Shown here in pieces: positions 8,893-30,870 of a stretch of 32,685 bases of DNA. Below the pieces are notes generated by a model. It worked only from the letters and a program-made list of their open reading frames with translations, had not been told where the DNA came from and searched no databases. Every line of letters starts with the position of its first letter. The first letter of the stretch is position 1. Position numbers and translations under genes: made by a program. The DNA is from Polyrhizophydium stewartii (Eukaryota; Chytridiomycota; Chytridiomycetes; Rhizophydiales): assembly GCA_027604665.1 (NCBI GenBank), contig JADGIZ010000059.1, forward strand, positions 1 to 32,685, written 5' to 3'.

Positions 8893-11347
8893 ATGAGGTC
8901 GCATGTCTCGGCGCAGCTGCTGCCGCATCCGTTCGAGGTCCGCCGCCACGACATGGATCCGTGCGTGATGGACACGACCCCAGAGCACCGTGCGCGCATG
9001 CGCAAGATTCTGTACGGCGAGCGCCAGAAGCCCGTGGGTGAGAGTCCCAAGGGCGGGCCGCATTCTGCGATCTGCAGATCTGGATTTGGCGGTGCGACCG
9101 TGGCGGCCGCTGACCGCACCGATCTGTTGCGACGCGCGCTGCCCGCAGCCGGCACGGGCCGCGAGTCAGGTAACTTCCATGCCAACTATGGCGACGAGGT
9201 GCCGCCCAAGTGGCGCAGCACCACCGACGCCGAGTACGATCGCAAAGTCTCGCATCAGATCCTCGACAACAACAACCAGAACAAAGAATGTGAGCAGCAA
9301 TCGAGGCGGCGTATGCCTCTGGCACTCTGCCTGCTGCTAGAAATGGCCGTCGGGTGGCCGGTCTCTCCCATGCAACGAATCTGACACGGCGGATAACGGC
9401 GCATCGCCGCCCGCGGCTTGTCGCCGCACCGAACCACGCCTCTCGCGCGAGGCCAGCATCCAAATACATGCGCGAGTCGCACTTTTCGCTCGAGGCCCAC
9501 GAGGAACCCGGCGCACCAATGAGCCTGACAAAGAAAGACTATTGTGGAAAGGACCCTAAGGTGCGCGCAACATGATTACGGCTGCTGATCGGCCCTGGGC
9601 TCACACCTCGAACGCAGGCGGCGCAGCGCGCCAATTACCGCGCCGTCTCCGAAGGCCACAGCACGTATCCACCTATCTTCCGCGACGAGAACGAGCTCGT
9701 CATGCACCGCGGCAAGGAGATGCCACACACCAGGCAGAGGCCGGCGCCAGTGGGTCGATTTGAGCGCAAACCCATGATCGACTCCAGCGCTGCGAGCAAG
9801 AGCACGACCCACTTTTCGCTCGGCGACGATATTACCGTGTGGGAGTCGGTCACGAGCGCGGCCATGAAGCGCCATTCCCTGACAAGCAAGCCGCCGCCGT
9901 CCGAGTACGAAAGCCTCGAAAAGTCCAAATCAACTGTACTGGACAATCCGGATCTCGTGCTTGAGCCAATGCAGAGCGTGCAGAGACGAGGTGCAGCACC
10001 GCTTCGGCAGCCCGGCTTGAAAACAGACGCTTTGGTGCTGATTCTTCTCGCCAATACGAGACTTTTCGCTCAGTGACAGTCTTGACCGCTCGACGCTCAA
10101 GGTCGACAATACTCTTTCGATAAGAGATCTCAAGTCAACGCACTTTACGGTGCGCGCATGGCAAACCAACGCTTGGTGCTTCAAGGTTCATGCGCTGACA
10201 TGAGCTGCCTGACCGCGATGGAGAGCAGCTTGGCACCGACGACTCTGGTCATCAGACATCGCAGTATCAAGCGACATTTGGCGCATCTGCGGCCGAGTCG
10301 GCCGAACTCGCCAGAAATCACAAGCGGCTTGCGCAGTCACAGCCGGCGTCCAAGCTGTGTATTATCGCCGAAGACTTTGAGGACCGCCGCATGGGTACAA
10401 GCTCGCAGCGAGAGGACTTTCGCGACCCCAAACTCCGTGCGAGCGCAGGCCACAGCAGGCGAAAGATCGAGGAGATCAAGGTCCGCAGATGCTCGGATGC
10501 GCTTCATCTTAGCCTTTCCCTGCCCCAGCTTGTGCGCTGACACCGCCACCAGAAAATCAACTCGCAGTCTTCCATCACCCTCGGGCTGGACTCTGCAGGA
10601 CTCTCCAACGACAGTAGGTCGGTTACCAGGAGCGATTTTAACCGGCCCGCCGAAAAGCCTGACGGCGGACTCGCGCTCGAGGCGTACAAGCGCCACGGAC
10701 GGCCGCTCCGCCCAGAGATGCGCTCGTACAACCCCCTGAGTGTCGAGGATATCCCCATGGATAAGATGTCCGCGACGCACTCGCAGTTTCGCCCGCCTCC
10801 GAGCAACCCGCTGTCGGATCCGCTTATGAGCGCACCCGCGGCCGGCGCGATTGCGCGCGACGCCGAGGATCACCGCATTTACCTCAAGGCGAGCCACTTT
10901 GAGATCGGCACTGACGAGGACGCTGCCGTGGCCGAGGGCCGGCGGCAGTCGACGACGATGCGGCACTTTGTCAACCCGCAGTCGCTGGCGCATACGGTGC
11001 GTCGAGAGGGTGCCGGCGCATCGGGCCTCAACGGCAGCCACACGATCTCGCGGCGCAACGAGCGTTTCGAGGAGACACTTGACAACACCATCACTCGGTA
11101 CCCTGGATCCAACGAGCGCCTCACCATGACGTCCAATTCGAGGTACGGCCAGTTCGCGCAGCCAAAGCGCACTGTGCCGCACAGGCCGCCAGCGCAGGAT
11201 ACGATGTCCGCATACTTGCACCCGGCTGTCGTGCCCTCTGTAGAGCAGCAGGACGGCAGTGTGCGCTTTGAGCCCATTCGAGACTTTTCCACCGTATCGC
11301 GCCGCACGTTTGTGGCACCAGAGGTCGTCATTGCGCAGGCTTCCTGA
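8893..11347 (+). CDS. Probable axonemal microtubule-associated protein with HFxLGxD repeats (SAXO-like)
   Basis: Proposed exons: 8893-9037, 9170-9289, 9457-9560, 9618-9990, 10061-10149, 10229-10480, 10553-11347, giving about 625 aa. The intron 9038-9169 is a multiple of three (132 nt), so its retention would add 44 residues in frame. The donor at 10481 is GTCCGC, atypical here. The protein repeats a motif around HFxLG(x)D followed by S/T-rich and (D)F/Y residues: HFSLEAHEEPG, STTHFSLGDD, DFSLSDS, STHFTLGTDD, SSITLGLDSAG, ASHFEIGTDED. The DNA ACTTTTCGCTC recurs at 9481, 9811 and 10061 in three of them. This resembles SAXO-type axonemal proteins (possibly the SAXO5/TEX45 group), from memory and without a search. 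Position directly upstream of an outer-arm dynein gene fits a flagellar role. No enzyme motif, signal peptide or membrane segment is visible. Confidence 0.6.
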
Positions 11348-11621: not shown

Positions 11622-14600
11622 ATGGCGACCACGGGCAGCACCAACAACCTCCACCGCTCGAATCAGAACCTCGCGCATGACAACGAGAACAAGAAAAAGG
11701 CCGCCGCGGCCCAGACGGCCGTCGAGAAGAAACGCGCATCGCTCGACGCGCGGCACCGCTACCTGCTCGAGAAGTTTGCGGCCTTTGTCGACGAGAAGCC
11801 CGCGACGCTCGAGAACTCGCTGCTCGTCGGTAACAAGCTGGACCTCATCAACGACTTTTTCGCCGAAGGCGGCTCGCGCAAGGTCCTGTTCTTTTGGCAG
11901 AAGGTGTGTCTGCAGGCGTGTCAGTGTGTGTGCCTATGTTTGTGCCTGCGCGTGCGGTCGCAGGCACGGGCGTGAGTGTAGACGAGGGTGTGGGTGCGAA
12001 TGTGCTTGTCTGCCTGCCGCGCTCGCTGTTTGTTGTCTGGTGGGCAGTGCGGCCACCGCGCGAGATCTGGCGGTCGCCGACCTCGTGGGTCGCTCCTGGC
12101 ACCGAGGGAGGCGCCGCGCGGATGCGCATCGGGCTTGGTCTGGCGTGCTGAGCTGGCCCTGCTCGAGCCTCCCTCCCGCGCACGCTCTAGGGCGTTCGTT
12201 TGCGTCGCTATTCGCTGACGACCAGCACTCGTCGTGCCTGCTCGCTCATCTGGTCCGCCCGCTCGCCGGCTCGCGTCCCATCGCGTTGCGCATGACCAGG
12301 ATGACTCGAGCACAGCAAAGACTGCGGCCGCAGCCGCCAACCAGACCAAGCCCAATACCCTGATCGTCACCCTCGGTAACAAGGAGGTTCTCACGGGCCT
12401 CGGCGCCTTCTTCATCCGGCCCAACACCAAGGCCATCACCCCGCAAAACATCTTCACCGACATCTCTTTTGGACCGCTCAACTCTAACCTGCTGCCATCG
12501 CTGACAAGCATGGTCAAGTACATCATAATGCCCGCGCTCCGCGCCCAGGTGCGTGCCGTGCTTGGTGTCCTTGATATGTCCGATGCAGCGGTGGTTGCTT
12601 GCGGAGGTACCTGACGCTGCGCTCTGCCGCATATTCTCCGATGACAGGACAACTGGGGTGTTCTCGCGCGGCAAAAAGACGAGTCGGTCAAGGGATTCAT
12701 GGAGGTCCTCGAAAAGTTCACTGGCGACATTGATGTCGCCATGGTCAACCTTCACGATAGCGTGCAGCTACATCCCTGCACAATCGACCTCGAGGCCTTC
12801 AAGAAGCCCTACGACTATGCCAATGCCGCACACAACCCCGAGGTCATAAACGCGCTCGAAGGTAGACTGCGCTCTGGACGCTGCTCCCGAACTCGAGCGG
12901 CCGCTTACGCCCGCGGTGCCGTTTTCGCACGCAGGGCTTGTCAACGAGTGGTGCAAGCAGATCGAGCAGGTTCTCGCCGAGAGCGAGCAGATGCGAAAAG
13001 AGGCTGATGACATTGGCCCCAACGCCGAGCTGGCTCACTGGAAAGCGCGCATGGTCAAGTTCAACAGCATTACTGACCAGCTCAAGAGCCCCGTCTGCAA
13101 AAAGGTCATTGGCATCCTCAACGCCGTCAAGTCGCGTGCGCTTCTCAAGACGTGGAAGGACCTCGACGACCGGGTTACGGACGCAGCCAACGAGTCCAAG
13201 GACAACGTCAAGTACCTTTACACGCTCGAGCGCTTCTGCGATCCACTCTATCGCAGCGACCCACTCGGCATGATCCCCGCGATCCCTGGCCTGATCAACG
13301 CCATCAAGATGATCTACTCCATCTCGCGCTACTACAACACGTCAGAGCGCATGACTTCGCTCTTTGTCAAGATCACCAACCAGATGATCACGAGCTGCAA
13401 AGAGTTTGTCTACAAGGACGGCGGCTCCAAGATCTGGGACCTCGACCGCCAGGTGCTTGTGCAGAAGCTCATGGAGTGCCACAAGCTCAACGAGGCGTAC
13501 CAGCGGTGCTTCCACGAGATCAAGAAGAAGCTTCAAGAGACGCCGCAGGAGAAGCAGTTTGACTTTTCCGAGATGTATATTTTCGGCAAATTCGATGCCT
13601 TTTGCAAGCGCATCCAAAAGGTCATTGACATGTTCAACATCATCGAAAAGTTCTCGCTGCTCGAAAACCTCGGCGTCGAGGGTATGGACTCGATCGTGCG
13701 TAAGTTCTCCAATATCCTGACGCAGATGCAGCGCAAGCCGTACGACATCCTGGACCACCGCAAGATGGAGTACGACTCGGACTACAACAACTTCAAGAAG
13801 CAGGTCTCGGACCTCGAAGCAACGCTGCAGCAGTTCATCGACTCGTCGTTTGAGCACATCTCGAGCACAGAGCAGTCGCTCGAGCTGCTGTCCAAGTTCA
13901 GCCAGATCAAGGACATGCAGCTCGACCTCGAGTCCAAGTACCACTCGGTCTTTGTGCACTACACACGCAAGGACCTCGAGGGCGTGCGCAAGCTGTACCA
14001 AAAGTACAAGGACCTGCCACCTATCCCGCGCAACACCCCACCGGTGTCCGGTGCGATTGCATGGGCCCGCCAGCTCTACCGCCGCATCGAAAACCCCATG
14101 AAGCACTTCAAGAGCAAGACCTCCGTTCTTGACTCGGCCGAGGCCAAGAAGCATATTCGCAACTACAACAAGCTCGCGCGCGCTCTGATCGAGTTCGAGG
14201 TTCTGTGGCACCGGTCGTGGTACAACATCGTCGAGCAGGCCAAGACGGGCCTACAGGCGACCCTGCTCGTGTCCAACGGCGAGGGGCAAGTCTACGTCAA
14301 CTTTGATCCGCAAATCATCCAGCTCATCAAGGAGACAAAGTACATGCTGCGTCTCGGGCTCGAAGTCCCAGAGTCCGTCAAGAACGTCTGCACAAAGGAG
14401 ATGTACTACAAGGGGCTCTACAACGGTCTCGTGCACATCCTGCAGAACAAGAAGCGCGTTCTCGAGCGCGTGTCCAACATCCTGCGCCGAGCCATGGCGC
14501 CGCACATTGACGAGCTCGACCGCACGCTGCAACCGGGCTTGACGGCGCTGACTTGGTGAGCCACCGCTTCGCATTGGAGCTTGCCAGGAGCACCGCCTCT

Positions 14601-17600
14601 GTCGTCGTAACGGCCCTCTGACTCCTGTTCTGCTATTCAGGACGTCGCTCAACCTCGACGACTACCTCCAGGCCAACCATAAACAGCTTGCCAAGCTCGA
14701 GGAGCTCGTCGACAAGCTGCTAGACATATCAGAGTGCCGCATCGAGATGGGCGTGCGCAAGATCGCCGAGATTTCCCTCGTCGAGGTGCCTGCGGACACA
14801 GAGCAATGGTCGGTCGATATCTTCTTTGAGAAGACCGAGAAGCGCTGCAGCTCCATGATCCAAACAATCAGCAACCGCAGCAACCTGATTGAGAGCGCGA
14901 CGCGTGACATGATCGCCGAGCTGTCCAAAGGCGTTGCACAATACGTCAACCCGGACCTGCGCCTGGCGTACGAGAGCGTGTACTACAACGCAAACTACCA
15001 GAACTTTGAGGCGTTAGTTCAGTGCACCAAGGGCTCGCTTGACATGCTGCGCGCGCGCTTGGGCACGTACACAAGCAATCAGTACAACAAGGCGCCAAGC
15101 CAGAAGCCGTTCTTCCGCGCCGAGATCGTGCTGCTTATCCCAAACGTCGTGCTACAGCCCAAGCTCGAGGACATCCAGGCGGCGCTCAACCGTGCGGCGG
15201 GCATGGTGATTGACGTGGCCAAGAAGCTTTCGCTCAACTGGCGCGTTTTCCTCGACGCACCCGAGGACCATGCGACGGCGCACTACCCCGAAGACACGTC
15301 GCAGGTCGCCAACAACAAGGACGTGCTCAAGGTCATGATGATGCTCAGCTCGACGGTCAACTCCATGAAGAAGGACGTCGAGAGCCATCGCGAGCAGTTT
15401 GGCAAGTACGACTTTCTGTGGAAGGAGGACAAGGCCGAGACAATCCAAAAGTTCCTTGACAGCAACCCGACCATCTCGGACTTTGAGAACGAGATCAATC
15501 GATACGAGTTCATTGAGCGCGAGATCGTCGAGATTCCCGGCTCGACCCAGATCGGTCTCTTGCTCATCTCCGCGGAGCCGCTCAAGCTTGCGCTGCTTTC
15601 CGAGACCAAGGAGTGGAAGCAGCAATACGGCCTCAACCTCAACCGCAAGGTCAAGACCGACATGGAGCAGCTCATTGAGTACATGGAGAGCAAGACCATC
15701 AAGCTTAGCCGCAAGATTGCCGACATTGACGACCTGCGCATTGCAGTCCAAACGCTGAGCGAAATCCGCGAGGCCGAGGTCGACATTGACATGAAGGTCG
15801 CGCCGATCGAAGAGGCGTACCTGCTGCTGACCAAGCACAACGTCTCGGTCACGCGCGAGGAAACTGAGATGGTCGACTCGCTACGGTACAGCTGGAAGAA
15901 GCTCAAGATGCTCGTCATCGACACTCAGGCGCATCTCAGCAAGATTCAGCCCGTATTCAAGGCCGATCTGCTCGGCGCCGTGCAAAAGTTCTCGCAGGAC
16001 GTCAAGGAGTTCACGGTTGAGTACACCGAGAACGGGCCCATGGCCGGCAATATCCCGCCAAAGACCGCCAGCGAGCGCCTCAACGTCTTCCAACGCGGTT
16101 TTGACGAGCTCAACCGCAAGTGGGAGACGTACTCTGGCGGCGAGGAGCTCTTCTGCCTCCCCGTGACGCCGTTCCCAACGCTCGTGCGCATCAAGAAGGA
16201 GCTCAAGCTCCTGCAGAACCTGTACAGCCTCTACAACGACGTTCTCGAGAAGCGCCAGACGTACAACGAGACGTTGTGGGCCGACATTGATCTCGAAAAG
16301 ATTAACACCGAGATGACCGACTTCCAGAACAAGATCAAGAAGCTGCCCAAAGCCATCAAGGACTGGGACGCCTTCACAGAGCTCAAGAACATTGTCGAGA
16401 ATCTCGCCGCGATGGTACCGCTGCTCGAGATGATGTGCAACAAAGCCATGCAGCAGCGCCACTGGGATTCGATCATGGCCATCACGAAGACGCAAATCAA
16501 CCTCGATCCCGACATGTTCTATCTCAAGAACCTGCTCGATGCGCCGCTAGTCCAGTTCCGCGAGGACATTGAGGATATCTGCACAGCGGCCGTCAAGGAG
16601 GCGGACATTGAGGTCAAACTCAAGGCCACGGTCGTCGACTGGGAGGACAAGAACTTCACGCTCGCCGGTTTCAAGACCCGCGGCAACCTCATCCTCAAGC
16701 CGTCGGCCACGTCCGAGATCATCTCGCAAATGGAGGACTCGCTCATGACGCTGGCGTCACTGATGAGCAACCGCTACAACGCACCCTTCAAGCCAACGAT
16801 CCAAACCTGGGTCCACAACCTGTCGACCGCGTCCGAAGTCATTGAGAACTGGCTTGCCGTCCAGAATCTGTGGATCTATCTCGAAGCCGTGTTCGTCGGC
16901 GGTGACATTGCAAAGCAGATGCCAAAGGAGGCCAAGCGCTTCAGCAACATCGACAAGTCGTGGTGCAAGATCATGGGCCTCGCCAACGAGCATCCCAACG
17001 TGATCCAGTGCTGCGTTCTCGACGAGACCATCGCCAACCTGCTGCCGCACTTGACCGAGCAGCTCGAGCTGTGCCAAAAGTCTCTTTCGGGCTACCTCGA
17101 GTCCAAGCGCGCCATCTTCCCGCGGTTCTATTTTGTGTCGGACCCGGCGCTGCTCGAGGTCCTCGGACAGGCGAGCGACTCGCACACAATCCAAGCGCAT
17201 CTCAAGAGCGTCTTTGACAACATCGACAAGGTGCAGTTCCACGACAAAGAATACGACAAGATCATCGGCATGGAGTCGTCCGAGGGCGAGCGCGTTCCGC
17301 TCAGCCGCCCGATGCTCGCGGCAGGCAATGTTGAAGTCTGGCTCGGCACGCTGCTCAAGTCCATGCAGACGTCCATCAACGATATCATCCGCGAGGCCGC
17401 CGCGCGCGTCAACGACGTCCAGACACAAAAGTTCATGGACGAGTATCCCGCGCAAATCGGCTTGCTGTGTCTTCAGATCCAGTGGACTCAAATGTGCGAG
17501 GAGGCTCTGACGCTGTCCAAGACCGACAAGAAGAAGATGGGCGCAACTAACCAACGCATCATCGAGATCCTCAACATCCTTATCGAAGTCACTACAAAGG

Positions 17601-20600
17601 ATCTGTCCAAGATGGACCGCACAAAATACGAGACGCTCATCACGATCCAGGTCCACCACCGTGATGTGTTTGAGAAGCTGTACAAGTCGCATGTCAAGTC
17701 GCCCGACGATTTCGAGTGGCTCAAACAAGCTCGCTTCTACTGGCAAGAGACCAAGGACTGCTGCATTGTCTCGATCACCAACTTTGATTTCAAGTACCAG
17801 TGCGAATACCTCGGGTGCTGCGACCGCCTCGTCATCACGCCACTTACGGATCGGTGCTACATTACGCTCGCTCAAGCCCTTGGCATGTCTCTCGGTGGCT
17901 CTCCTGCGGGTCCCGCTGGTGAGCTGATGTGCCTGCTGCGTACTTCTCAACGCTTTTGAGCTTACCACCGATCCAGGAACGGGCAAGTGTTGGGGCCGCG
18001 GCACGCGGCTGGTCATGCTCGACGGCACGGCCAAGGCGGTCGAGGAGATCTGCGAGGGCGACGTGCTCATGGGACCGGACTCGCAGCCGCGCATTGTGCG
18101 GCCCGGCTCCATCACGCGCGGCACCGAGGCCATGTACCGCGTCACGGCGACCGACGATGCCCGCATCTCGTGGACCTGCAACGGCCCGCACATCCTCGTG
18201 CTGCAGCTCAACGACAAGCCCACCGTTGTTGCCGCCGGCGGCCGGTTCTTCGTCAAGACGTGGACGACACGGCCCGGCACGAGCGCTGTCTCGCAGATCC
18301 CGTGTGCGGATCTCGTTGGCGGTGCATTCGCGACCCGCAACGATGCCGAGGCGTTCATCGACGAGCTTGTGCGCACCGAGTGGCAACCACTCGTGTTCGA
18401 GTGCACCGTCATCGATTACCTTGCCATCAAGGACGAGTCGCTGCGGCGGTCGCTGGCCATGTTCCAGCCGCCACTGATCGAGTGGCCGTCGCCAGCCGTC
18501 TCGCTCGCTGCGAGGATCAGTGAGATGCGCGGCCCAGAGGCGTCGCTCGCCATGGTCGCCCAGATTGCATGGGCCATCGGCGCATGGCTGGCGCTGAGCA
18601 CTGGTTCCGGCCGCGTCGAGATTTGCGAGCAAGTTCACTCGGAGTTTGAACGCATCGCGGCGATGCTCGGCGAGGGCATGCCGGGGAAGTGCGAATCGGC
18701 ATTCTCGGAATTGATCGGGTCGTACGGGCTGGCCCAGGCCACGAACATCCCGCACGAGCTGATGACCGAGTGCCCGGCGGTGCGCCGCGCGCTGCTGGCT
18801 GGACTTGTCGACTGCAGCGGACGCATTGGCGAGGACGGCGGCTGCACGATCACATCTGCATCGGCAGGCATCCTGACTGATGCGGCAAGCCTGGCTCGCG
18901 GCCTCGGCCTCGTCGTCGGAAAGTCGCACGAGCACGCATCCATCGCGGTTCGCGGCGCGGGCCTCACGGCTGTTGCCGAGCACATTGTGACCGATGACAA
19001 GCGCCGCGCTGTCGCTGAGCTGGCATCGGGCACACAGGGCACCGACTCGTGCTTTGGCTTCACGATCGAATGCGTTGGATTCGACGACTATTTTGGCTTC
19101 TCGCTCGACGGCCGCGACGGCCGCTGCCTGCTCGCGGACTACACCGTGACGCACAACACCGAGTCTGTCAAGGATCTGGGCAAAAACATTGGACTTTGGG
19201 TCGTCGTCTTCAACTGCTCTGACCAGATGGACTACCGCGGCCTTGGCCGTATCTACAAGGGTCTCGCCCAGAGTGGCTGCTGGGGCTGCTTCGACGAGTT
19301 CAACCGCATTGAGCTGCCGGTGCTCTCTGTGGCTGCTCAACAGATTGGCTGCGTGTTCTCGGCGCGAAAGGAGCGCAAGACCTCGTTCCTGTTTACAGAT
19401 GGTGACGTTGTTGAGCTCAAGCCAGAAGTTGCCATGTTTATCACGATGAACCCAGGTGTGTGCCGATGCGAAGCTAAACTTGAAGTTTGGAGGGCGAAGG
19501 CTGACACGCGAGCGCGCGCTTGTCGTTCGACTCAACTGCGCCGATTATGCCGTCTGCCTGACAACAACCAGGCTATGCTGGTCGTGTCGAGCTCCCCGAG
19601 AACCTCAAAGTGCACTTCAGATACGTCGCCATGATGGTGCCTGATCGCCAGATCATTATTCGCGTCAAGCTTGCCGGTTGTGGTTTCATCAGCAACTTGA
19701 TCCTGGCCAAAAAGTTCTTTGTGCTTTACCGCCTTTGCGAGGAGCAGCTCTCGAAGCAAGTGCATTATGACTTTGGCCTCCGCAACATTCTCTCTGTGTT
19801 GCGCACGTGCGGTTCGGTCAAGCGCGCGAACCCAGACGACTCTGAGAACTTGATTATCATGCGCGTGCTGCGCGACATGAACCTCTCCAAGCTTGTCGAC
19901 GAAGACGAAGCGCTCTTCCTGAGTCTCGTCAATGACTTGTTCCCAGGCCTCACAGCCAAAAAGGGCAGCTATCCAAACGTCGAGGCAGCCGTCGACCAGC
20001 AACTCGCTGAAGCAAATCTTATCAGCCACCCGCCATGGACGCTGAAGGTTATCCAGCTTTACGAGACGGCCAAAGTGCGCCATGGCATCATGATTCTCGG
20101 TCCAACTGGTGAGCTGATGCGTCGGCTGAGTGCTTGCCAACGCTTTTGAGCTGACCACTGATCCAGGAACGGGCAAGTGCTGGGGCCGCGGCACGCGGCT
20201 GGTCATGCTCGACGGCACGACCAAGGCGGTCGAGGAGATATGCGAGGGCGACGTGCTTGTGGGGCCTGACTCAAAGCCGCGCGCCGTGCTCACTGGCTCC
20301 ATCACGCGCGGATTCGCACCCATGTTCCGCATCGCACCTGCGCAGCCTGGCCGCCAAGCGTGGACCTGCAACGAAGATCATATCCTCGTGGTGCGCCTGC
20401 CGATTGAGCCGTTTGCGGCCCAAAATGCCCCGAACGGAGATTGGTCGGTTGTCGAGTACGTCGCGGCGCCAGGATCCACGCCCGAGTCGTTTGTGCCTCG
20501 CCTCGACCACGTCAAGGGCGGATTCGGATCCCGCGCAGACGCCGAAGCCTTTGCACGGGATCGCATCATGTCGGCGTGGACCCCCCTCGAGTTCGAGTGC

Positions 20601-23600
20601 ACTATCCGCGATTACATGAGCTTGGATGAGACGATCAGGTCGGCGCTCGTCATGTTCCAGCCTGGCGCGATCAACTGGCCTGCACCTCAACGCGGACTCG
20701 CGCACGAGCTCGAAGCCTTACTCGGCGCCTCGCATGTGGCTGAGCTCGTGCTGCGCTCTGCATGGGCCCTTGGTGTTTGGATCGCACGAGGCATCGAGGG
20801 AAGCCCAAGTGTTCGCACCAGCGGCATGTGCGATACTGCCGAGCATGACCTTTCAAAACTGGCGGTTGATCTTGGCGGTCTATCGCACAAGCTTAGTGAT
20901 CGAATCGATCTTGGCGATCGGTTTGCACAGCTGCTGAAGCGGCTCGCCATGCTCACTGGCAAGCGCATTCCGCAAACTCTGCACCAGGAGTCACAAGAAA
21001 TTCGCGGCGCCCTGCTTGCCGGCTGGATTGATGGCGCGGCTGTTTCGAGCGACGCGCTGCATATCCAAATCCACTGCGGCTCGCACGAAGCCGCAGAGGA
21101 CCTTGCGCGTCTTGCTCGCGGATTAGGGTTGGCCGCCATTCCCGAAGCTGCTGCAACCAACGACGCACGAGCAGGGCCTATTTTGTGCGTCGTCGCCGTG
21201 GTCGGCCATCAGCAAGTCTATGAGCACATCCGCAGGCGCATGGCATCTGTCGCTGCCGCTCCCGCGAAGCTGGACGCGATGTGCTCCAAGTTTACTGTCA
21301 CTCGTCTTGACGCAGACTTCTACTATGGCTTCGAGCTCTCGGGCGACGGCCGCTGCCTCATCTCAGACTTTACTGTCACGCACAACACAAAGTGCATTAA
21401 CGCGCTGCTCAAGGCCATGACTGCGTGCGGCGACCCTCACAAGGAGCTTCGCATGAATCCAAAGGCCATCACGGACTACCAGATGTTCGGAAAGCTCGAT
21501 GTCGCCACAAACGACTGGACCGACGGCATCTTCTCCTCCTTGTGGCGCAAGACGCTCAAGCGCAAGGGCGAAACCGTATGGATTGTGCTCGACGGCCCCG
21601 TCGATGCCGTGTGGATCGAGAACCTCAACTCTGTGCTCGATGACAACAAGTGCTTGACGCTGGCCAACGGCGACCGCATCCCCATGTCGCCCGCGTGCAA
21701 GCTTACCTTTGAGGTGCACTCGCTGCGCAACGCCAGTCCGGCGACCGTGTCGCGCTGCGGCATGATCTACATTGGCGTGACGGCGCTCACGTGGGACATT
21801 GTGCTGCAGTCGTGGTTCAAGACACGTCCAGCAAACGAAGTGGGCGTCCTCGAGGCGCTCTTCAACGGAAGCTTTGGCGCCGTCAACCAGTTCATGATCC
21901 TCGAGCTCCACCCAAAGATGATCATCGCGCAGGTCAACTACGTTGTCAACGCAACGATTCTGCTGACAGGCCTGATTCCCAAGGCCGAGGCGAACAAGTC
22001 GCAAATCTCCTCCGAGCATCTGGAGCGTCTGTACGTCTACGCGCTGTTCTGGGCCTTTGGCTCTCTGCTCGAACTCGACGAGCGCAAGAAGTTGCAGCAG
22101 TTTATGCTTGAGAAGCTACCGGACCTCAAGTACCCGCCCATCGATCCGTCGTCGCAGGACACCTTCTATGAGTTCTTTGTCAACGACAACGGCCAGTGGC
22201 AGCACTGGCGCGACCGTGTCGTCGATTGGCTGTATCCGCAGGACACCACGCCCGAGTTCTCGTCCATCATCATCCCCATGGTCGACAACGTGCGCACCGA
22301 GTTTATGATGGAGACTGTCACAAAGCAAGGCCGCCCCGTGCTGCTGATTGGCGAGCCCGGCACGGCCAAGACTGTGACGGTCAAAAAGTACCTCGCCAAG
22401 CTCAACCCAGACACGCATCTGTCCAAGAACCTGAGCTTTTCGTCCGCCACGACGCCAATGATCTTCCAGCGCACGATTGAGAGCTACCTCGACAAGCGCA
22501 TGGGCTCGACGTACGGCCCGCCTGCGGGAAAGAAGATGATCATTTTCATTGATGACATCAACATGCCCGAGATCAACGAGTGGGGCGACCAGGTCACGGG
22601 CGAGATCGTGCGCCAGCTGATGGAGTACCAGGGCTTCTACTCGCTCGACCGACCTGGCGACTGGACCGCAATCGTCGATTTGTTCTTCCTCGGCGCCATG
22701 ATGCATCCTGGCGGTGGTCGCAACGACATTCCCTCACGGCTCAAGCGCCAGTTTGTGGTGCTCAACTGCACGATCCCTTCGGACGTCTCGGTGGACAAGA
22801 TCTTCGGCACGATGCTCGAGGGCCACTTTTGCGCCGCGCGCAACTTTGCTCCCGACGTCATTGCTATGGCTGCGCGGCTGCCGCCGCTGACGCGCCGTCT
22901 GTGGCAGATGACCAAGGTCAAGATGCTGCCGACTCCCGCAAAGTTCCATTACATTTTCAACCTCCGCGACCTGAGCCGCATCGTCGAAGGCATGCTCAAC
23001 TCGACGCCAGATGCCATCTCGAGCGACAAGCTGCTGCTCAACCTGTGGGAGCACGAGTGCTCGCGCGTGCTGCCAGACCGCTTCATCACGCAAGAAGACG
23101 TCGACTGGTTCAACAAGGCGATCATCAACATCGTGCAGAAGGATCTTGGAGACGACTATGTGGGCGTCGTTTCGACGAAAAGTTACTTTGTCGACTTTAT
23201 GCGCGAGCCCCCGGAGAACGACGATCCCGAGGTTGAGATTGATCTCGAGGCGATCAAGGTCTACGAGCGCGTTCCGTCCTTTGAAGTCCTGCGCGAGCGC
23301 CTTCTCGACTACATGAAGCAGTACAACGAGAACATTCGTGGCTCCAAGATGGATCTCGTGCTGTTTGAAGACGCCATGCGCCACATTGTGCGCATTTCGC
23401 GCATCATTCGGACGCCGCGTGGCAACGCGCTTCTTGTTGGCGTCGGCGGCTCTGGCAAGCAGTCGCTCACCAAGCTGGCGGCCTTCATTGCAAAAAGCCA
23501 AGTCTTCCAGATCGCAATCACAAAGAACTACAACGTCTCGAACCTCATGGAGGATCTCAAGCTCATGTACAAGGTCGCCGGCGCGCAGGGCAAGTCCATG

Positions 23601-26600
23601 ACGTTTATCTTCACCGACAACGAGGTCAAGGAAGAGGGCTTCCTCGGCTTCATCAACAACATCCTGACCTCGGGCGAGATCACCAACCTGTTCCCCAAGG
23701 ACGAAATCATCAGCATCTCGTCGGACCTGCGCGGCCCACTCAAGAAGCAGCGTCCCAACGTGATCGACACAATCGAAAATTTGTGGCAGTTCTTTATTGA
23801 TCGCGTCAAGGCGAACTTGCATGTCGTGCTCTGCTTCTCGCCCGTCGGCGACAAGTTCCGCAACCGCTCGCTCAAGTTCCCCGGTCTTGTCTCGGGCTGC
23901 ACGATGGACTGGTTCAGCCGCTGGCCCAACGAGGCTTTGCGTGCCGTCGCAGACAAGTTCGTTGCCGAGATGGAGATTGTGTGCACGGACCAGATCAAGA
24001 AGGAGGTCGTTTACCACATGGCGTTTGTACACGATCTTGTCACGGACGCGTGCAACAACTACTTTATGCAGTTCCGCCGCCGCACACACGTCACGCCCAA
24101 GTCGTATCTGTCCTTCTTGGGCTCGTACAAGTCGTACTACAAGAGCAAGCGCGACGAAGTCGGCAGCTCGTCTGACCGCATGAATATGGGTCTCTCGAAG
24201 CTCGTCGAGGCGTCCAAGTCGGTCGCAGTGCTGCAGGACCAGCTCGTTGTCAAGGAAAAGGAGCTTGCGATCGCATCAAAGGCTGCGGACGCTGTGCTTG
24301 CCGAGGTGACTGCTAGTACGACGGCGGCAGAGAAGGTCAAGGATGCCGTGCTCAAGGTCAAGACCAAGTCCGAGAGCATTGCCAACATGATCAAGGGCGA
24401 CAAGGAGTACGCCGAGTCGCAACTGGAGGCCGCCAAGCCTGCGCTCGAAGAGGCCCGCAACGCGCTCAACTCCATCCAGCCGTCGCACATTTCAACCGTG
24501 CGCAAGCTGGCCAAGCCGCCCCATCTCATCATGCGCATCATGGACGGCGTGCTCTTGCTCATGAAGCGCAAGATCGACACAATCACGCAAGACCCGGACA
24601 AGCCGTGTATGAAGCCGTCATGGAGCGAGTCCCTCAAGCTCATGTCGGCCTCGGACTTTTTGACGAATCTGCTCAACTTCCCCAAGGACGAGATCAACGA
24701 GGAGACTGTCGAGTTTCTCGAGCCGCTCATGGAGATGCCCGACTTCAACCTCGAGGGAGCCAAGAAGGTGTCGGCAGACGTCGCCGGTCTCGCATCCTGG
24801 GTCGGCGCGATGGCAGTTTACTATAGCGTGAACAAAAAGGTCATTCCTCTCAAGGCCAACCTGATCGTGCAGGAGCACAAGCTCGCAATCGCCATGGAGG
24901 ATCTCAACAAGGCGCAGCAGATGCTTGACGAGAAGCAGGCCGAGCTCGACGTCTTCCAAGCAAAATACAACGAAGCCATCTCGAACAAGCAGGCGCTGCA
25001 GGCCGACGCCGACAGCTGCAAGCGCAAGATGAATGCTGCCACGGCGCTCATTAGCGGTCTCAAGGGTGAAAAAGACCGCTGGACGATTCAGAGCAAGGAG
25101 TTTGCTGAGCGCATTGGCCGCCTTGTCGGCGACATTATCCTCGCCACGGCGTTCTTGTCGTACAGCGGCCCGTTTAACCAGACGTTCCGCTCGCAGCTGC
25201 TGCAAGATTGGCGCAAAGAGCTCCTGCGGCGCAAGATCCCGCACACCGAGGACCTCGACATCATAGGCTTGCTTGTCGACAACACGACCGTCGGCGAGTG
25301 GAACATCCAGGGCCTGCCCACCGACGAGCTGTCGATCCAGAACGGCATCATTGTCACCAAGGGCACGCGCTTCCCGCTTCTGATTGACCCCCAGAACCAG
25401 GCAAAGGTTTGGATCAAGAACCGCGAGGAGCAGAACAAGCTGCAAGTCACGACCCTGAGCCACAAGTACTTCCGTCAGCACATCGAGGACTGCGTCAGCC
25501 AGGGCCGTCCGCTGCTGATCGAAGACGTCGAGGAGACGCTCGACCCGACCTTGGACAACATCCTCGAGCGCAACCTCATCAAGGCCGGCCGCGGCTTCAA
25601 AGTTGTCTTTGGCGACAAGGAGATCGACTGGTGCGAGGGCTTCTACGTCTTCATCACCACCAAACTGCCCAATCCCAATTACAACCCTGAGATCTACGCA
25701 AAGTGCTCCATCATCGACTTTACCGTCACAAGCAAGGGTCTCGAGGAGCAGCTGCTCGGCCGTGTGATCATGCGCGAGAAGCAGGAGCTCGAGACTGAAC
25801 GCGCAAAGCTGCTCGAGGAGGTCAACTCAAACAAGCGCAAGATGAAGCAGCTCGAGGATAACCTGCTCGAGCGCCTGACATCGACAAAGGGCTCGCTCGT
25901 CGACGACGAGTCGCTGATTGAGGTGCTTGCGGTGACCAAGACGACCGCTGAGGAGGTTAACGAGAAGCTGGTTGTTGCCGCCGAGACGCAAAAGAAGATC
26001 GGGTCCGCACGCGAGGAGTACCGCCCCGTCGCAAGCCGCGGATCCATCATCTACTTCCTGATCGCCGAGATGAGCATGGTCAACGTCATGTACCAGACGT
26101 CGCTCAAGCAGTTCCTGCAGCTCTTCGACGAAAGCATGGAAAAGGGTGCTCCTTCGCCGATCCCAAGCAAGCGCATCCAGAACATCATCGAGTACTGCAC
26201 GTTCCGCGCATTCTCGTACATCACGCGCGGCCTGTACGAGATCCACAAGGTCATTTTTGTACTGCTGCTAGCGCTCAAAATCGACATCTTCAACGGCAAG
26301 GTCACGCACGAGGAGTTCCGCTGCCTTATCAAGGGCGGCGCCGCGCTTGACATCAACGCCGTCGTCAAAAAGCCGTTCAACTGGATTCCCGACATGACCT
26401 GGCTCAACTTGGTCGCTCTCAGCAAGATGCCCGGCTTCACAGATGTACTCAACCAAGTCGGCAAGAACGAGAAAGCCTGGCGCTCGTGGTATGAAAAGGA
26501 CGCTCCGGAGAACGAGGTCTTGCCCGGCGGATACCAGAACTCGCTCGATGCCTTCCGGCGACTGCTTCTCGTGCGTTCGTGGTGTCTCGACCGAACCGGC

Positions 26601-28664
26601 ATGATGGCCAAGCAGTACATTGCGTCGTCCATGACCACGCGCTTTGCCGAGTCGCAGATCCTCGACCTCGACGCCCTTCTCGGCGAATCCAACAACCGCA
26701 CGCCCATGATCTGCCTGCTGTCGCAAGGCTCCGACCCGTCGTCGGACATTGAGAACCTCAGCAAAAAGTACAAGATCGACATGAAGGCGATTTCTATGGG
26801 CCAGGGCCAGGAGGTGCACGCCCGCAAGCTGCTCTCGGCGTTCATGCTCAATGGCGGATGGGCTCTTCTGCAAAACTGCCATCTGGGCCTGCCGTTCATG
26901 GACGAGCTGCTCGGCTTGATTCTCGAGACCGAGGTCATCCACGAAAAGTTCCGCCTCTGGATCACGACCGACGTCAGCCCAAAGTTCCCCATCACTTTCC
27001 TGCAAATGTCCATCAAGTTCACCAACGAGCCGCCGCAGGGCATCAAGGCTGGTCTCAAGCGCACATACGCCTGGTTCACCCAGGACATGCTCGACATGAG
27101 CGCACGCCCGCAGTACAAGCCACTGCTCTATGGCCTCGCATTTTTGCACTCGATCGTACAGGAGCGTCGCAAGTTTGGCCCTCTCGGCTGGAATATTCCA
27201 TACGAGTTCAACCAGAGCGACCTTGCCGCCAGTGTGCAATTTGTCCAGAATCACGTCGACGAACTGGCGCCCAAGGCAAACATCTCGTGGACCACAGCGC
27301 GCTTCATGTTCTGCGAGGTGCACTACGGCGGCAGAGTCACGGACGACTTTGACAGGTATGTGGCTCGCGCGCGCCATGAGATCCAGCCGGGTCGGTGGGT
27401 GCTGACGCTGCAGCACCAAACGCAGACGTCTGCTGCAGACATACGGCAAGGTCTGGTTTGGCGACCACATGTTCCTTGACTCGTTCTGCTTCTACAAGGG
27501 ATACACCATCCCTCATCTCAAGACGATCGAGGAGTATCGTCAGTCCATCGAGAGCCTGCCGCTCATTGACACGCCCGACGCGTTTGGGCTGCATCCCAAC
27601 GCCGACATCTCCTGCCAAACCAAAGAGTCTCAGCGCATGCTCGGTGAGTTGCCCTTGGTTGGCGCAGGCGAGCTGCACAGCGTCCTTTCCGCTCACTCGT
27701 CGGTACTTCCACCGCAGATACGATCATGTCCATTCAGCCCAAGGACAGCAACACGGGCTCGGGAGAGACGCGCGAAGAAGTCGTCAAGCGCATGGCCAAC
27801 GACTTGCTCAGCAAGTTGCCCGAGTCGTTTGACAAGAACCGCACCAAGATCCAAATCCAGAAGCAGGGCGGACCCAAGCCTCTCAACATCTTCCTCGGCC
27901 AGGAGATCGACCGCATGCAAGTCGTTATTTCTGCCGTCAAGTCGACGCTTTCGGACCTCAAACTCGCTATCGACGGAACCATCATCATGGCGCCTGCGCT
28001 GCAAAACGCTCTGGACGCGCTCTACGACGCCCGCGTGCCAGATAGCTGGGTCAAGATTTCGTGGCAGAGCAGCACACTCGGTCTGTGGTACACCGAGTTT
28101 CTGAGCCGCGCCGCGCAGTTCCACACGTGGCTCTACGACGGCCGTCCACTCGTCTTCTGGCTCTCTGGCTTCTTCAACCCGCAGGGCTTCCTGACGGCCA
28201 TCCGCCAAGAGATTACCCGCGTCCACAACGGATGGGCACTTGACAGCGTGAAGGTGAGCGCGCACGTCTTGGTGCGTGGTTTGGGCGACTGATGCTGACA
28301 TCGTACCGCATGGCCACGATAGCTCGCCCCAGAGGTGATGAAGCAGATGAAGGAGGACATCAGCGCGCCGCCCGCTGAAGGCGTGTACATCCACGGCCTC
28401 TTCATCGAAGGCGCCGCCTGGGACCGCAAAAACATCCGCCTGACCGAGTCCCAGCCCAAGATCATCTTCCAGAGCATGCCCGTCGTCCACGTCAGCGCCA
28501 CAAACTCAACCGACGACGGCGACCCGCGCATGTACCGCTGCCCCGTCTACCGGCGCCCGCGCAGAACCGACCAAAACTACATCTTTGACATTGAGCTCAA
28601 GACGCAGCAGAACCCCGACTACTGGATCCTGCGCGGAATCGCCCTTCTGTGTGCGACGAGCTGA
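11622..28664 (+). CDS. DNAH5/8-like: Outer-arm axonemal dynein heavy chain (DNAH5/DNAH8-type) with two inteins
   Basis: ATP-driven motor of the flagellar outer dynein arm. Exons: 11622-11903, 12300-12548, 12648-12861, 12935-14555, 14641-17918, 17977-19455, 19572-20108, 20167-27355, 27426-27643, 27718-28253, 28323-28664; every phase agrees, total 15945 nt (5314 aa precursor, 4521 aa after intein removal; DNAH5/8 are about 4500-4600). Start context GCCGCCATGG is strong. Order: N-terminal tail and linker (residues 1 to about 1870), AAA1 P-loop GPAGTGK|T, AAA2 P-loop GPTGTGK|T, AAA3 GEPGTAKT (22350-22373), AAA4 GVGGSGKQ (23439-23462), stalk coiled coils around the microtubule-binding domain (about 24160-25085), AAA5-AAA6 and C-terminal domain ending [13 protein letters not shown]. 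Diagnostic DNAH5/8 stretches include [20 protein letters not shown] and [20 protein letters not shown]. Inteins lie at precursor residues 1886-2275 and 2558-2960. Confidence 0.96.
11904..12299 (+). other. First dynein intron, long and GT-rich
   Basis: This 396-nt intron is several times longer than the other dynein introns (58-116 nt). Its first 100 nt are rich in GTGTG/TGTGTG on the plus strand. It joins a 94-residue first exon to an exon starting [12 protein letters not shown]. Borders are AAG|GTGTGT and CCAG|GAT, phase 0. I see no coding exon inside, though a micro-exon cannot be excluded. Confidence 0.6.
17919..17976 (+). other. Twin intron A, 58 nt, in the AAA1 P-loop codons
   Basis: A phase-1 intron (GTGAGCTGATG...GATCCAG) splits the second Gly codon of the AAA1 Walker A motif (GPAG/TGK). 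Without its removal the frame meets TGA inside the intron. It lies 11 nt upstream of intein A and is 49/58 identical, with equal length, to the intron at the equivalent place in AAA2. It resembles no other intron in the window. Confidence 0.9.
17988..19157 (+). mobile_element. Intein A in AAA1 Walker A motif (390 aa)
   Basis: An in-frame protein intron inserted between Lys and Thr of the AAA1 P-loop (GPAGTGK|T). It begins Cys1 ([14 protein letters not shown], block A). Block B is [10 protein letters not shown] with T63 and H68, and it ends DYFGFSLDG...[10 protein letters not shown] (blocks F and G, H389-N390), with Thr as +1 extein residue. This set allows class-1 splicing. The layout is that of nuclear PRP8-like large inteins, including the spacer [11 protein letters not shown] ahead of the endonuclease region. 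The LAGLIDADG motifs are degraded: motif 1 [10 protein letters not shown] (residues 197-206) has Leu where the acid belongs, and motif 2 LAGLVDCSG (270-278) has Ser at the catalytic position. I predict a splicing-competent, endonuclease-dead intein. Confidence 0.95.
20109..20166 (+). other. Twin intron B, 58 nt, in the AAA2 P-loop codons
   Basis: A phase-1 intron (GTGAGCTGATG...GATCCAG) splits the second Gly codon of the AAA2 Walker A motif (GPTG/TGK), 11 nt before intein B. Length, position, phase and 49/58 bases match the AAA1 intron. Like its twin it carries an in-frame TGA, so splicing is required for the downstream reading frame. Confidence 0.9.
20178..21386 (+). mobile_element. Intein B in AAA2 Walker A motif (403 aa)
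   Basis: Second intein of the same gene, between Lys and Thr of the AAA2 P-loop (GPTGTGK|T). It starts [14 protein letters not shown]; block B is [10 protein letters not shown] (T63, H68); it ends [15 protein letters not shown]...TVTHN (H402-N403) and is followed by Thr. It is clearly homologous to intein A: 39 of the first 45 residues are identical, with much lower identity further on. Endonuclease motif 1 LGVWIARGI (198-206) has Arg, and motif 2 LAGWIDGAA (280-288) has Ala, in place of the catalytic acids. Splicing residues are intact. As with A, I predict protein splicing without homing activity. Confidence 0.95.
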
Positions 28665-28769: not shown

Positions 28770-30870
28770 ATGCTTGCTGCGCTCGTCCTGGGCATCCCTG
28801 CGCTCATCGTCGCCGCTGTGCTGCGCTGGCGACAGAGGTCCAACATCAAGGAGCGCGCGCTGCAGGCGCTCAACCCAAGCGTACGCATCTTCAAGTTCCT
28901 CTTCCCGCGGTTCCTGTTCGGCGTCCTCGACGTCACACGTTTCGATATCATTCCGCAGATGGTCTTGCCCTTGCCTCGCGGCTGGGAGTGGTCGGCCAAA
29001 CACAGAGTCTACGAGGCCTGGTGAGCAGCGTGCCGCGCGCAGCGACCGGCCTGCACACACCCCTCTCCCACACCATCGCCCCTTGCCTCTGCGCCTCCTG
29101 CTTCTGCCCCGCCCCCTGCTTCGGCGCCTGTTGCTTCGGCCTCTGTCGATGAGCCGAGAAAGCCTGTGTCCGCTCGGCTCGGCTGCACTCGGGCTCCGAA
29201 CTCTCTGCAAAATTTTATTGGCCGGCATCTGATAACATCCAACTCTGCCTTGCTCCCGCGCTGCTCGCAGCGGCCAAGACGCCTTCTTCGTGGTTGGCCC
29301 TGAGAGCCGATACTTCTGGGTTGCCGATGCCGACCTCGTTCGCGATATTGTCGTCCGCAAGCTCGACTTCCCCAAGCCGATCCAGATATACAAGATTCTC
29401 GACCTCTTTGGCCGCAACGTCGTCACGACCGAGCACGCCGAGTGGCGCCGCCACCGCAAGGTCGCCGCGCCGCAGTTCTCGGAAAAGAACAACATGTTTG
29501 TCCACCGCGAGACCGTGCGCACCGTCAAGGACATGTTCCGCGCCTGGGACTCGACCGCCGCCCAGTCGCCCGCGCAGTCTGCCGAGACCAGCGCGCTCCT
29601 TGCCGTCAACACGGACGGCGTCGTCATCGACGTCACCAACGACATGATGAAGCTTGCCCTGCACGTCATCAGCAGCGCCGGCTTTGGCTTGAAGATCGAC
29701 TGGGTCGAATCCGATAACGAACTCAAGCTGCCCGCCAACCACAAGATGTCATTCAAGACCGCTGTTCATGAGGTAATTGAGGGACTGAAGCTCAAGCTTC
29801 TTTTGCCCAAGTTTGCGTACAGCCTGCCGATCAAGCGCATCCAGCACCTCAAGGACTGCTTCGAAGGTGAGACCCATGCCGCCGTGCCTTGCTCTGCAAT
29901 CTCGCGCTGATCCGTGCGCGCTCTCGCAGAGTTTGAGCTGTATCTGCGCGAGATGATCCGCAGCGCCGACACCCAGACCGAGGCCAACCTGCTCGTGTCG
30001 CTCGCCAAAGCGGTCAAGGCCGAGGATCCCGCCAACAGCATTCTGACCGAGCAGGAGCTCGTTGGAAACATGTTCATCTTCATGTTCGCGGGTGAGTGCA
30101 GCGCACGCCTGTTACAACTGTCGAGAGCGGCTGCTGATGCGTGAATATGACGGCAAGGTCACGAGACGACCGCCAACGCCCTGAACTTTTCGCTGGCGCT
30201 GCTCGCCATCAACCAGAACGCTCAGCAGCGTCTTCACGACGAGGTCAAGACCGTCATCGGCGACAAGGATCCCGAGTACCGCCACATCCCCGAGCTTGTC
30301 TACACTCTCGCCGTCATGAACGAGGCACTGCGCATGTATCCTCCCGTTTCCGAGATCCCCAAGATTTCCAACGGCCGGCAGTCCGTCGGGGGCGTTAATT
30401 TGATCGACAGAACCCGCATCACGCTCGATGTCATGGCGCTGCACCACAACCCCAAGTACTGGGGTCCTGACCCCCAGGCGTTCCGCCCCGAGCGCTGGTT
30501 CGCCAGTCCCGAGTGCGCGCGCAGCGCCAAGGCCACTGCCGACGCCGTCCGTGCCAACGCCAATGCCCGTTCGACCAAGGAAGCACCTGCTATGGACGGC
30601 GATCTTCCGCAGCAGGCTCAGCCCCTGTACTCGTACAACCGGTACGCCTTCATTCCGTTCTCTGAGGGTGCCCGCTCATGCCTCGGCAAGCGCTTCTCCC
30701 AAATCGAGTTCATCACGGCGCTGGCGATGATCGTGCAAAACTACTCGGTCCACCTGCCCGATGGCGCTTCGCCCGAGCAGATGCTCGACACACAGATGCG
30801 CATCACGGTTCAGACAGCGGAGCACGTCAAGCTTGTGTTCCGCCGCCGTGCTTCATCCGCGCATGCTTGA
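28770..30870 (+). CDS. Cytochrome P450 monooxygenase (membrane-anchored)
   Basis: Four exons (28770-29020, 29271-29866, 29930-30091, 30158-30870) give 573 aa. An N-terminal hydrophobic anchor (MLAALVLGIPALIVAAVL, then RWRQR) predicts ER-membrane attachment. P450 signatures in order: WRRHRK (C-helix), I-helix oxygen-binding AGHETT (about 336-341), K-helix ExxR (EALR, 392-395), PERF-type FRPERW, and the heme loop PFSEGARSCLGKRF with Cys511 as the iron ligand. All key residues are present, so an active NADPH-P450-reductase-dependent monooxygenase is expected; the substrate is unknown. An unusual Ala/Asn/Gln-rich insertion of some 30-40 residues separates FRPERW from the heme loop. The exon 1/2 junction (phase 2, giving Cys-Gly-Gln-Asp) is the least certain splice. 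Confidence 0.9.

Follow-up and report, generated by a model that had tools for sequence, protein, structure and literature searches.

Among the described systems closest to the one reported here, the inteins of the RNA polymerase second-largest subunits occupy mostly distinct sites and are generally not closely related, according to sections of Goodwin et al. 2006 (PMC1635734), which judge ectopic intein movement very rare and hold movement to be almost confined to the same site of the same gene. In mirusviruses, spliceosomal introns bearing homing endonucleases, called shintrons, represent an association that excerpts of the describing paper state was not observed before (PMC12768974). According to an excerpt of PMC2814812, conserved sites are not preferred by spliceosomal introns. 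In PMC5784728, the table of common eukaryotic intein hosts has no dynein and the word 'dynein' is absent from the main text. The subject of this report is a 32,685-nucleotide (nt) stretch of DNA (contig JADGIZ010000059.1, here C59), hereafter the window, from the chytrid Polyrhizophydium stewartii, in which one axonemal dynein heavy chain gene carries two inteins, each with a 58-nt intron just upstream. The original prediction for this DNA held that no intein was known in an axonemal dynein, and the open-access literature, judged from titles and abstract openings, yielded no description of inteins in dynein. A VDE-fold intein and its companion intron have colonised most of the axonemal dyneins found in this chytrid, and the system is real, larger than first reported, and unusual. 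Its anatomy, copy number, linkage and selection are demonstrated, as is the fold of intein 1, whereas the splicing of the protein and of the intron, the history of homing and the reliance of motility on splicing are inferred. The history that we favor, with a probability of roughly three in four, is that a GK/T-type intein (the slash marks the insertion point) spread among paralogous motor genes through homing and gene conversion and took the intron along.

Inteins in the AAA1 and AAA2 P-loops of the window gene

The host gene encodes an outer-arm heavy chain of the DNAH5/8 type. Pfam matches cover DHC_N1, DHC_N2, AAA_6, AAA_7, AAA_8, AAA_9, the stalk (MT), the D6 region and most of Dynein_C; the mapping leaves out exon 1 and the final part of Dynein_C, and the gene start is unmapped. 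For the part after intein 2, the nearest solved structures are chains labelled DNAH5 and outer-arm gamma; the best-ranked row is a whole-axoneme entry that bears a label other than a dynein name. Two complete inteins had been proposed at GTGK/T of the AAA1 and AAA2 P-loops, and translation and Pfam bear out both their coordinates and their lengths. The features of the gene are as follows.

12850..17918, + strand: N-terminal part of the heavy chain up to GPAG of the AAA1 P-loop, exons and introns (DHC_N1, DHC_N2, first 42 positions of AAA_6)
17919..17976, + strand: spliceosomal-type intron of 58 nt that interrupts the AAA1 P-loop, GTGAGC...CTTACC...CCAG; unspliced read-through stops at TGA 17957-17959
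17977..17987, + strand: 11-nt exon piece GAACGGGCAAG between intron and intein 1; it completes G, then gives T-G-K of the AAA1 Walker A
17988..19157, + strand: intein 1 (AAA1), 390 amino acids (aa), Hint plus degenerate LAGLIDADG endonuclease (Pfam, sequence and fold)
18594..18596, + strand: Leu203 of intein 1, in place of the relatives' first LAGLIDADG Asp (alignment)
18810..18812, + strand: Asp275 of intein 1, the second LAGLIDADG Asp, kept (alignment)
19158..19455, + strand: AAA1 C-extein exon, starting TES (AAA_6 match)
19456..19571, + strand: ordinary 116-nt intron within AAA1
19572..20108, + strand: exon with the remaining AAA1 up to GPTG of the AAA2 P-loop (AAA_6 positions 142-323)
20109..20166, + strand: 58-nt intron of the AAA2 P-loop, sharing 97% identity with the AAA1 intron of C169 (intron comparison)
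20167..20177, + strand: 11-nt exon piece GAACGGGCAAG in AAA2
20178..21386, + strand: intein 2 (AAA2), 403 aa, with Arg replacing the first endonuclease Asp (Pfam, alignment)
21387..27479, + strand: heavy chain from AAA2 through AAA6, with stalk and lids (Pfam, solved relatives)
27648..28289, + strand: exon for the dynein C-terminal domain, covering positions 6-195 of 309 (Dynein_C, E = 1.8e-58)

Both inteins are stop-free in translation, start with CWGRGTRL, end with VTHN and stand between GTGK and T. Hom_end_hint (PF05203) covers them end to end (E = 2.6e-17 for intein 1 and 2e-15 for intein 2), with Hom_end (PF05204) inside (E = 1.1e-8 and 1.8e-4, respectively). In fold and in sequence intein 1 is PI-SceI/VMA1-like, endonuclease domain included. 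The hallmarks of class 1 inteins recur in all eight dynein inteins of the genome, namely these two and six further copies described below: Cys1, block B TCNxxH with its Thr and His, and a terminal VTHN followed by a Thr codon, to which the Hint fold can be added. Since the catalytic residues are intact in 8/8, the dynein inteins are predicted to undergo protein splicing. The copies do not appear to encode an active LAGLIDADG endonuclease, as the first Asp is Leu in all seven AAA1 copies and Arg in the AAA2 intein, with the second Asp retained in 8/8. The dynein inteins are probably immobile now.

Removal of the inserts at the RNA level, or an origin of the copies as assembly artefacts or pseudogenes, is barely credible, and nothing found speaks for it. 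There is no GT-AG at the exact insert ends (AAG or AAA, then TGT or TGC, at the start; AAC at the end), and the intein is not part of a larger intron, because excision from the 58-nt intron donor past the intein would delete GTGK of the Walker A motif. Open frames and a ratio of nonsynonymous to synonymous divergence (dN/dS) below 1 also weigh against these readings, as do the position of the copies on seven contigs with different flanks and the presence of the major dynein domains in the window gene.

Copies in seven dynein genes

The genome assembly searched comprises 12.86 Mb. It contains six further copies of intein 1, and the seven AAA1 inteins are mutually 87-94% identical; the AAA2 intein of the window gene is an eighth copy, sister to the AAA1 inteins and 41-43% identical to them. 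Searching the genome with PF05203 gave eight places, all of them dynein sites, to which PF05204 adds a PRP8 insert and PF14890 an RPB1 insert. With the AAA1 Pfam model (PF12774), at least 13 dynein loci scored above the cut-off, the locus counts being lower bounds drawn from the best-scoring candidates; seven of these 13 have an intein at the same AAA1 residue and six do not. The original interpretation is partly supported: spread between paralogous modules of a flagellar motor would be wider than supposed (seven AAA1 sites and one AAA2 site), and the PRP8-like source proposed with it is rejected.

By our own comparison, the intein-bearing genes include C59 (DNAH5/8 type), C169 (DNAH9/17 type) and C74 (DNAH3/7/12 type); C106, C15, C246 and C49 are assigned by database label only, as dynein 7, 7, 1 and 6. 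Intein-free are C27 (DNAH10), C19 (DNAH2), C123 (cytoplasmic dynein 2), C267 (cytoplasmic dynein 1) and the divergent C7 and C45. The carriers therefore span both outer-arm types and five single-headed inner-arm types, and the non-carriers include both I1 chains, DNAH2 and DNAH10, and both cytoplasmic chains, where single-headed, inner-arm and I1 are the roles that we take the matching heavy chain types to have. The inteins of three P. stewartii dyneins in the database are the C106, C246 and C15 copies, identical at 390/390 residues.

Other P-loops of these genes were also inspected. The AAA1 P-loops of the divergent dyneins are unusual, reading GQGGSGKT in C45 (L031) and GPVSVGKT in C7 (L029). 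Four intein-bearing genes (L019, L020, L022, L024) have uninvaded AAA3 P-loops with GPTGTGKS. Among the AAA2 P-loops seen, GTGKT occurs only in the joined AAA2 of the window gene, where GTGK belongs to the moved unit.

The companion intron

At 8/8 intein sites, a 58-nt GT-AG intron splits the P-loop codons, with its 3' end 11 nt before the intein. The original prediction mentioned neither this intron nor the copies in six other dynein genes. As expected of spliceosomal introns, all eight have the ends GTGAGY or GTAAGC ... CAG, and their removal restores the frame. They contain no indels and are 78-97% identical, the AAA2 intron being 83-97% identical to the AAA1 introns. Over the 126 nt upstream, identity is 53-84% among AAA1 copies (63-84% without C169, whose exon may begin within the stretch) and 28-38% between AAA2 and AAA1, and for AAA2 and the distant paralogs the unit has a sharp left edge. 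When the genome was searched at the DNA level with the C169 intron and the 11 nt as query, very common words being skipped, eight places matched, and these are the eight intein sites; therefore, the intron, the 11 nt and the intein act as a single unit. The 11-nt piece reads GAACGGGCAAR at all eight sites, and the stretch varies in the intein-free C123, C267, C19 and C27.

Removal of the intron from the RNA is predicted from its sequence. Database gene models that use it include P0022 and P0023; those of C106 and C246 splice it out and keep GPAGTGK-intein-TET, and those of C15 and C49 differ at this intron. The intein-free DNAH10 gene on C27 has a 77-nt intron at exactly the same position (near 30085-30151; L034 / L017); compared with the 58-nt intron it gives a mean z of 1.88, against 0.04-1.51 for five other dynein introns.

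Two known kinds of mobile intron do not apply. For an introner element, similar introns at unrelated sites are absent, and the eight copies found in the search, which skips common words, all lie beside inteins. For a shintron, the endonuclease gene would lie inside the intron, which here is 58 nt long.

Divergence, exchange and selection

For the seven AAA1 inteins, synonymous divergence (dS) is 0.10-0.23 and dN/dS is 0.18-0.41 (21 pairs). Along the intein, mean dN/mean dS is 0.16 for residues 1-130, 0.26 for 131-185, 0.33 for 186-345 (endonuclease) and 0.43 for 346-390. Intron divergence, about 15% as a hand average of the intron matrix, is close to the intein dS. The intein tree is a star, whereas the extein tree, built on 100 residues from 11 of the 13 loci with C7 and C45 left out, is deep.

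The nearest neighbour of a given copy changes along the unit. C169 and C49 differ at 1/195 sites in residues 1-65 and at 16/195 in residues 66-130, and over residues 131-325 the nearest neighbour of C169 is C59; since neighbours shift in this way, we read the seven AAA1 units as mosaic. Among 86 informative sites, 55% of pairs are incompatible, and 38 of 1000 permutations were as clustered as observed. Between the AAA2 and AAA1 inteins, identity falls from 97-98% in the first 60 nt to 77-83% in residues 21-45 and 42-45% in residues 76-130, which we read as a putative conversion tract over the intron and the intein start in AAA2.

A two-step history could also be drawn from such exchange. The intein would have entered intron-free P-loops first, and an intron that later arose beside one copy would have passed to the other seven by conversion anchored in the intein sequence, making it a passenger of conversion and not of homing. 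AAA2 has just such a tract, with the intron and the first ~60-90 nt alike and the remainder far apart, and both the mosaicism among the seven AAA1 units and the degenerate endonuclease of 8/8 copies are in line with it. However, intron divergence is about equal to intein silent divergence among the AAA1 copies, as for one event per gene, and the intron accompanies 7/7 AAA1 inteins, such that each conversion would have to have gone to completion. We consider the two-step history unlikely, though the strongest competitor to spread of the intein and intron together.

Another potential explanation is that the inteins are domesticated and serve as a shared post-translational switch, releasing active AAA1 together, for example at zoospore formation, with conversion keeping the copies alike. 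The intein is found in 7/9 ordinary axonemal heavy chains found and 0/2 cytoplasmic ones, the copies are under purifying selection, and mobility has probably been lost. Purifying selection is nevertheless expected of any intein obliged to splice, and both I1 heavy chains are without the intein, and a shared switch seems improbable to us. Equally speculative is the fuller version, in which the eight units would be one domesticated, concertedly evolving system with its companion intron, holding outer-arm and single-headed inner-arm AAA1 inactive until splicing. If it were true, the axonemal motor set would be switched on together after translation.

Relatives, other inteins and neighbouring genes

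Database searches scored 8000 candidates in each of two cases (one listing the best 120 of 230) and 1274 in another. Among the candidates scored and matches listed, no dynein intein was found in other species. The closest matches listed outside dynein are P0002, P0027 and P0029, 29% identical over 98-100%; by Pfam, their hosts are a ribonucleotide reductase piece, a UPF1-like helicase interrupted at GPPGTGK/T, and RPB1. GK directly precedes the intein in 25/30 relatives, two of the other five having no upstream sequence; in P0029 (RPB1) this GK is not a P-loop. For the intein tree, 30 relatives were chosen from the listed matches, of which 29 passed the length filter (P0004 was dropped), their intein ends were set by pairwise alignment, and PRP8 inteins were not included. 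In this tree the dynein inteins are monophyletic (99/92) and form one clade with P0002, P0027, P0029 and P0028 (100/100), apart from the remaining inteins of helicases, DnaB and ATPases in the tree. With intein 1 as the lone query, IMG/VR, searched for a possible viral source, yielded no relative; alignment A2 matched 68 stretches, of which 39 encode relatives, and the 10 with the best E-values are 21-47% identical (best segment). NCBIfam gave no useful match.

The PRP8-like origin first proposed is contradicted by the resemblance of intein 1 to PI-SceI/VMA1, and the PRP8 intein present in the same genome is a separate one. The latter (L043:1361-3397, - strand; C180:12160-14196) is 679 aa long, reads CLEAGTQ...TTVHN/CLDFPNI, sits in a host that is PRP8 by Pfam, and keeps Asp in both LAGLIDADG-like motifs (by eye). 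Its similarity extends to four of the eight dynein inteins, with scores of 14-23 bits (at most 22.9). We reject PRP8 ancestry on the fold and sequence of intein 1 together with this weak match across all eight. Nor is this a VMA1 intein at its usual VMA1 site, as the hosts are dynein heavy chains. The genome also has an RPB1 intein-like insert (L044, - strand; C356, ~9959-11272) of 457 aa, located before TFHYAG. It scores 44 bits with Intein_splicing in the protein scan, above the cut-off; as cut, it starts with Ser and ends with Asp, not Asn, and its ability to splice is doubtful.

In the window, the dynein gene has as neighbours a PA-domain protein (2265-3518, - strand), a glycosyl hydrolase 47 (5608-6288, - strand) and a cytochrome P450 (30151-30867, + strand).

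Proposed history and its consequences

In the history that we favor, the ancestor would come from an intein family seated at GK/T of P-loop ATPases. It would have entered the AAA1 of one dynein in which the 58-nt intron already lay 11 nt upstream or was then gained. Homing and gene conversion at the DNA level would have carried it to the AAA1 of six other axonemal heavy chains, and the intron would have been copied along because it lies merely 11 nt from the insertion site; intein mobility would thereby have created new spliceosomal introns. In AAA2, an older, diverged intein may later have received the intron and the first ~60-90 nt through a conversion tract. The endonuclease active site now seems broken in all eight copies, and the inteins may have been retained because an essential P-loop seldom loses such an insert precisely, with gene conversion presumably keeping the seven AAA1 copies alike. 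At the protein level, the class 1 PI-SceI-fold insert would excise after translation, join GTGK to T and restore the dynein Walker A motif, such that the swimming motors probably must cut themselves free before working.

Several observations weigh against this account. The first endonuclease Asp is gone in 8/8 copies and the residue corresponding to PI-SceI Lys301 in 7/7 AAA1 copies; with both missing, the AAA1 copies probably descend from an ancestor that could no longer cut, and in that case homing would predate this ancestor or the spread would be due solely to gene conversion. The endonuclease part does not evolve neutrally (dN/dS 0.33), and constraint on Hint-C is no stronger (0.43). The closest inner-arm chains show no left-edge contrast, C106 and C15 being 84% identical in the exon and 81% in the intron. 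The recombination test is weak (p ~0.04), and homoplasy could also yield the incompatibility. On the right flank there is no general signal of excess identity: in the first 60 nt, among same-residue codons, 231/312 are identical in pairs of intein-bearing genes, and 134/186 in comparisons of bearing genes with the intein-free C27 and C19. Both kinds of splicing, of the intron and of the protein, are deduced from the DNA, and the order of events is drawn from a single species, P. stewartii. As an exception on the right flank, C106 and C246 are identical at 57/60 nt right after the intein and then at 41/60, possibly another conversion tract.

One intein family thus holds, in one genome, the same residue of seven paralogous motor genes and also a second module within one of these genes, and its movement is recorded by its passenger intron. 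The system would be a concrete example of spliceosomal introns gained through an intein, and the motility of an organelle would have been made dependent on protein splicing of most of its motors. P. stewartii is saprotrophic and in culture. Both implications, intron gain and motility dependence, can be tested directly in this one fungus and by assays in E. coli.

Comparison with known systems

The PI-SceI/VMA1 intein (VDE) of yeasts differs from the dynein inteins in host (VMA1, not dynein) and in site, which is here the GK/T P-loop; furthermore, the dynein inteins lack the first catalytic Asp, exist in many paralogous copies and have a linked intron. The uncharacterised metagenome inteins P0002, P0027 and P0029, compared as proteins only, share a clade with the dynein inteins, and P0027 is likewise at GTGK/T, but their hosts are others and the first LAGLIDADG Asp is kept in all three. 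Fungal PRP8 inteins are unlike the dynein inteins in host, site and sequence. Shintrons, as excerpted above, share with the dynein inteins a link between the spread of a spliceosomal intron and a homing endonuclease; their endonuclease gene lies within the intron, whereas the 58-nt dynein intron lies beside the intein. The inteins of the RNA polymerase second-largest subunits, in the sections cited, likewise inhabit a paralogous eukaryotic family; in the dyneins, one intein occupies one site in seven paralogs of one genome.

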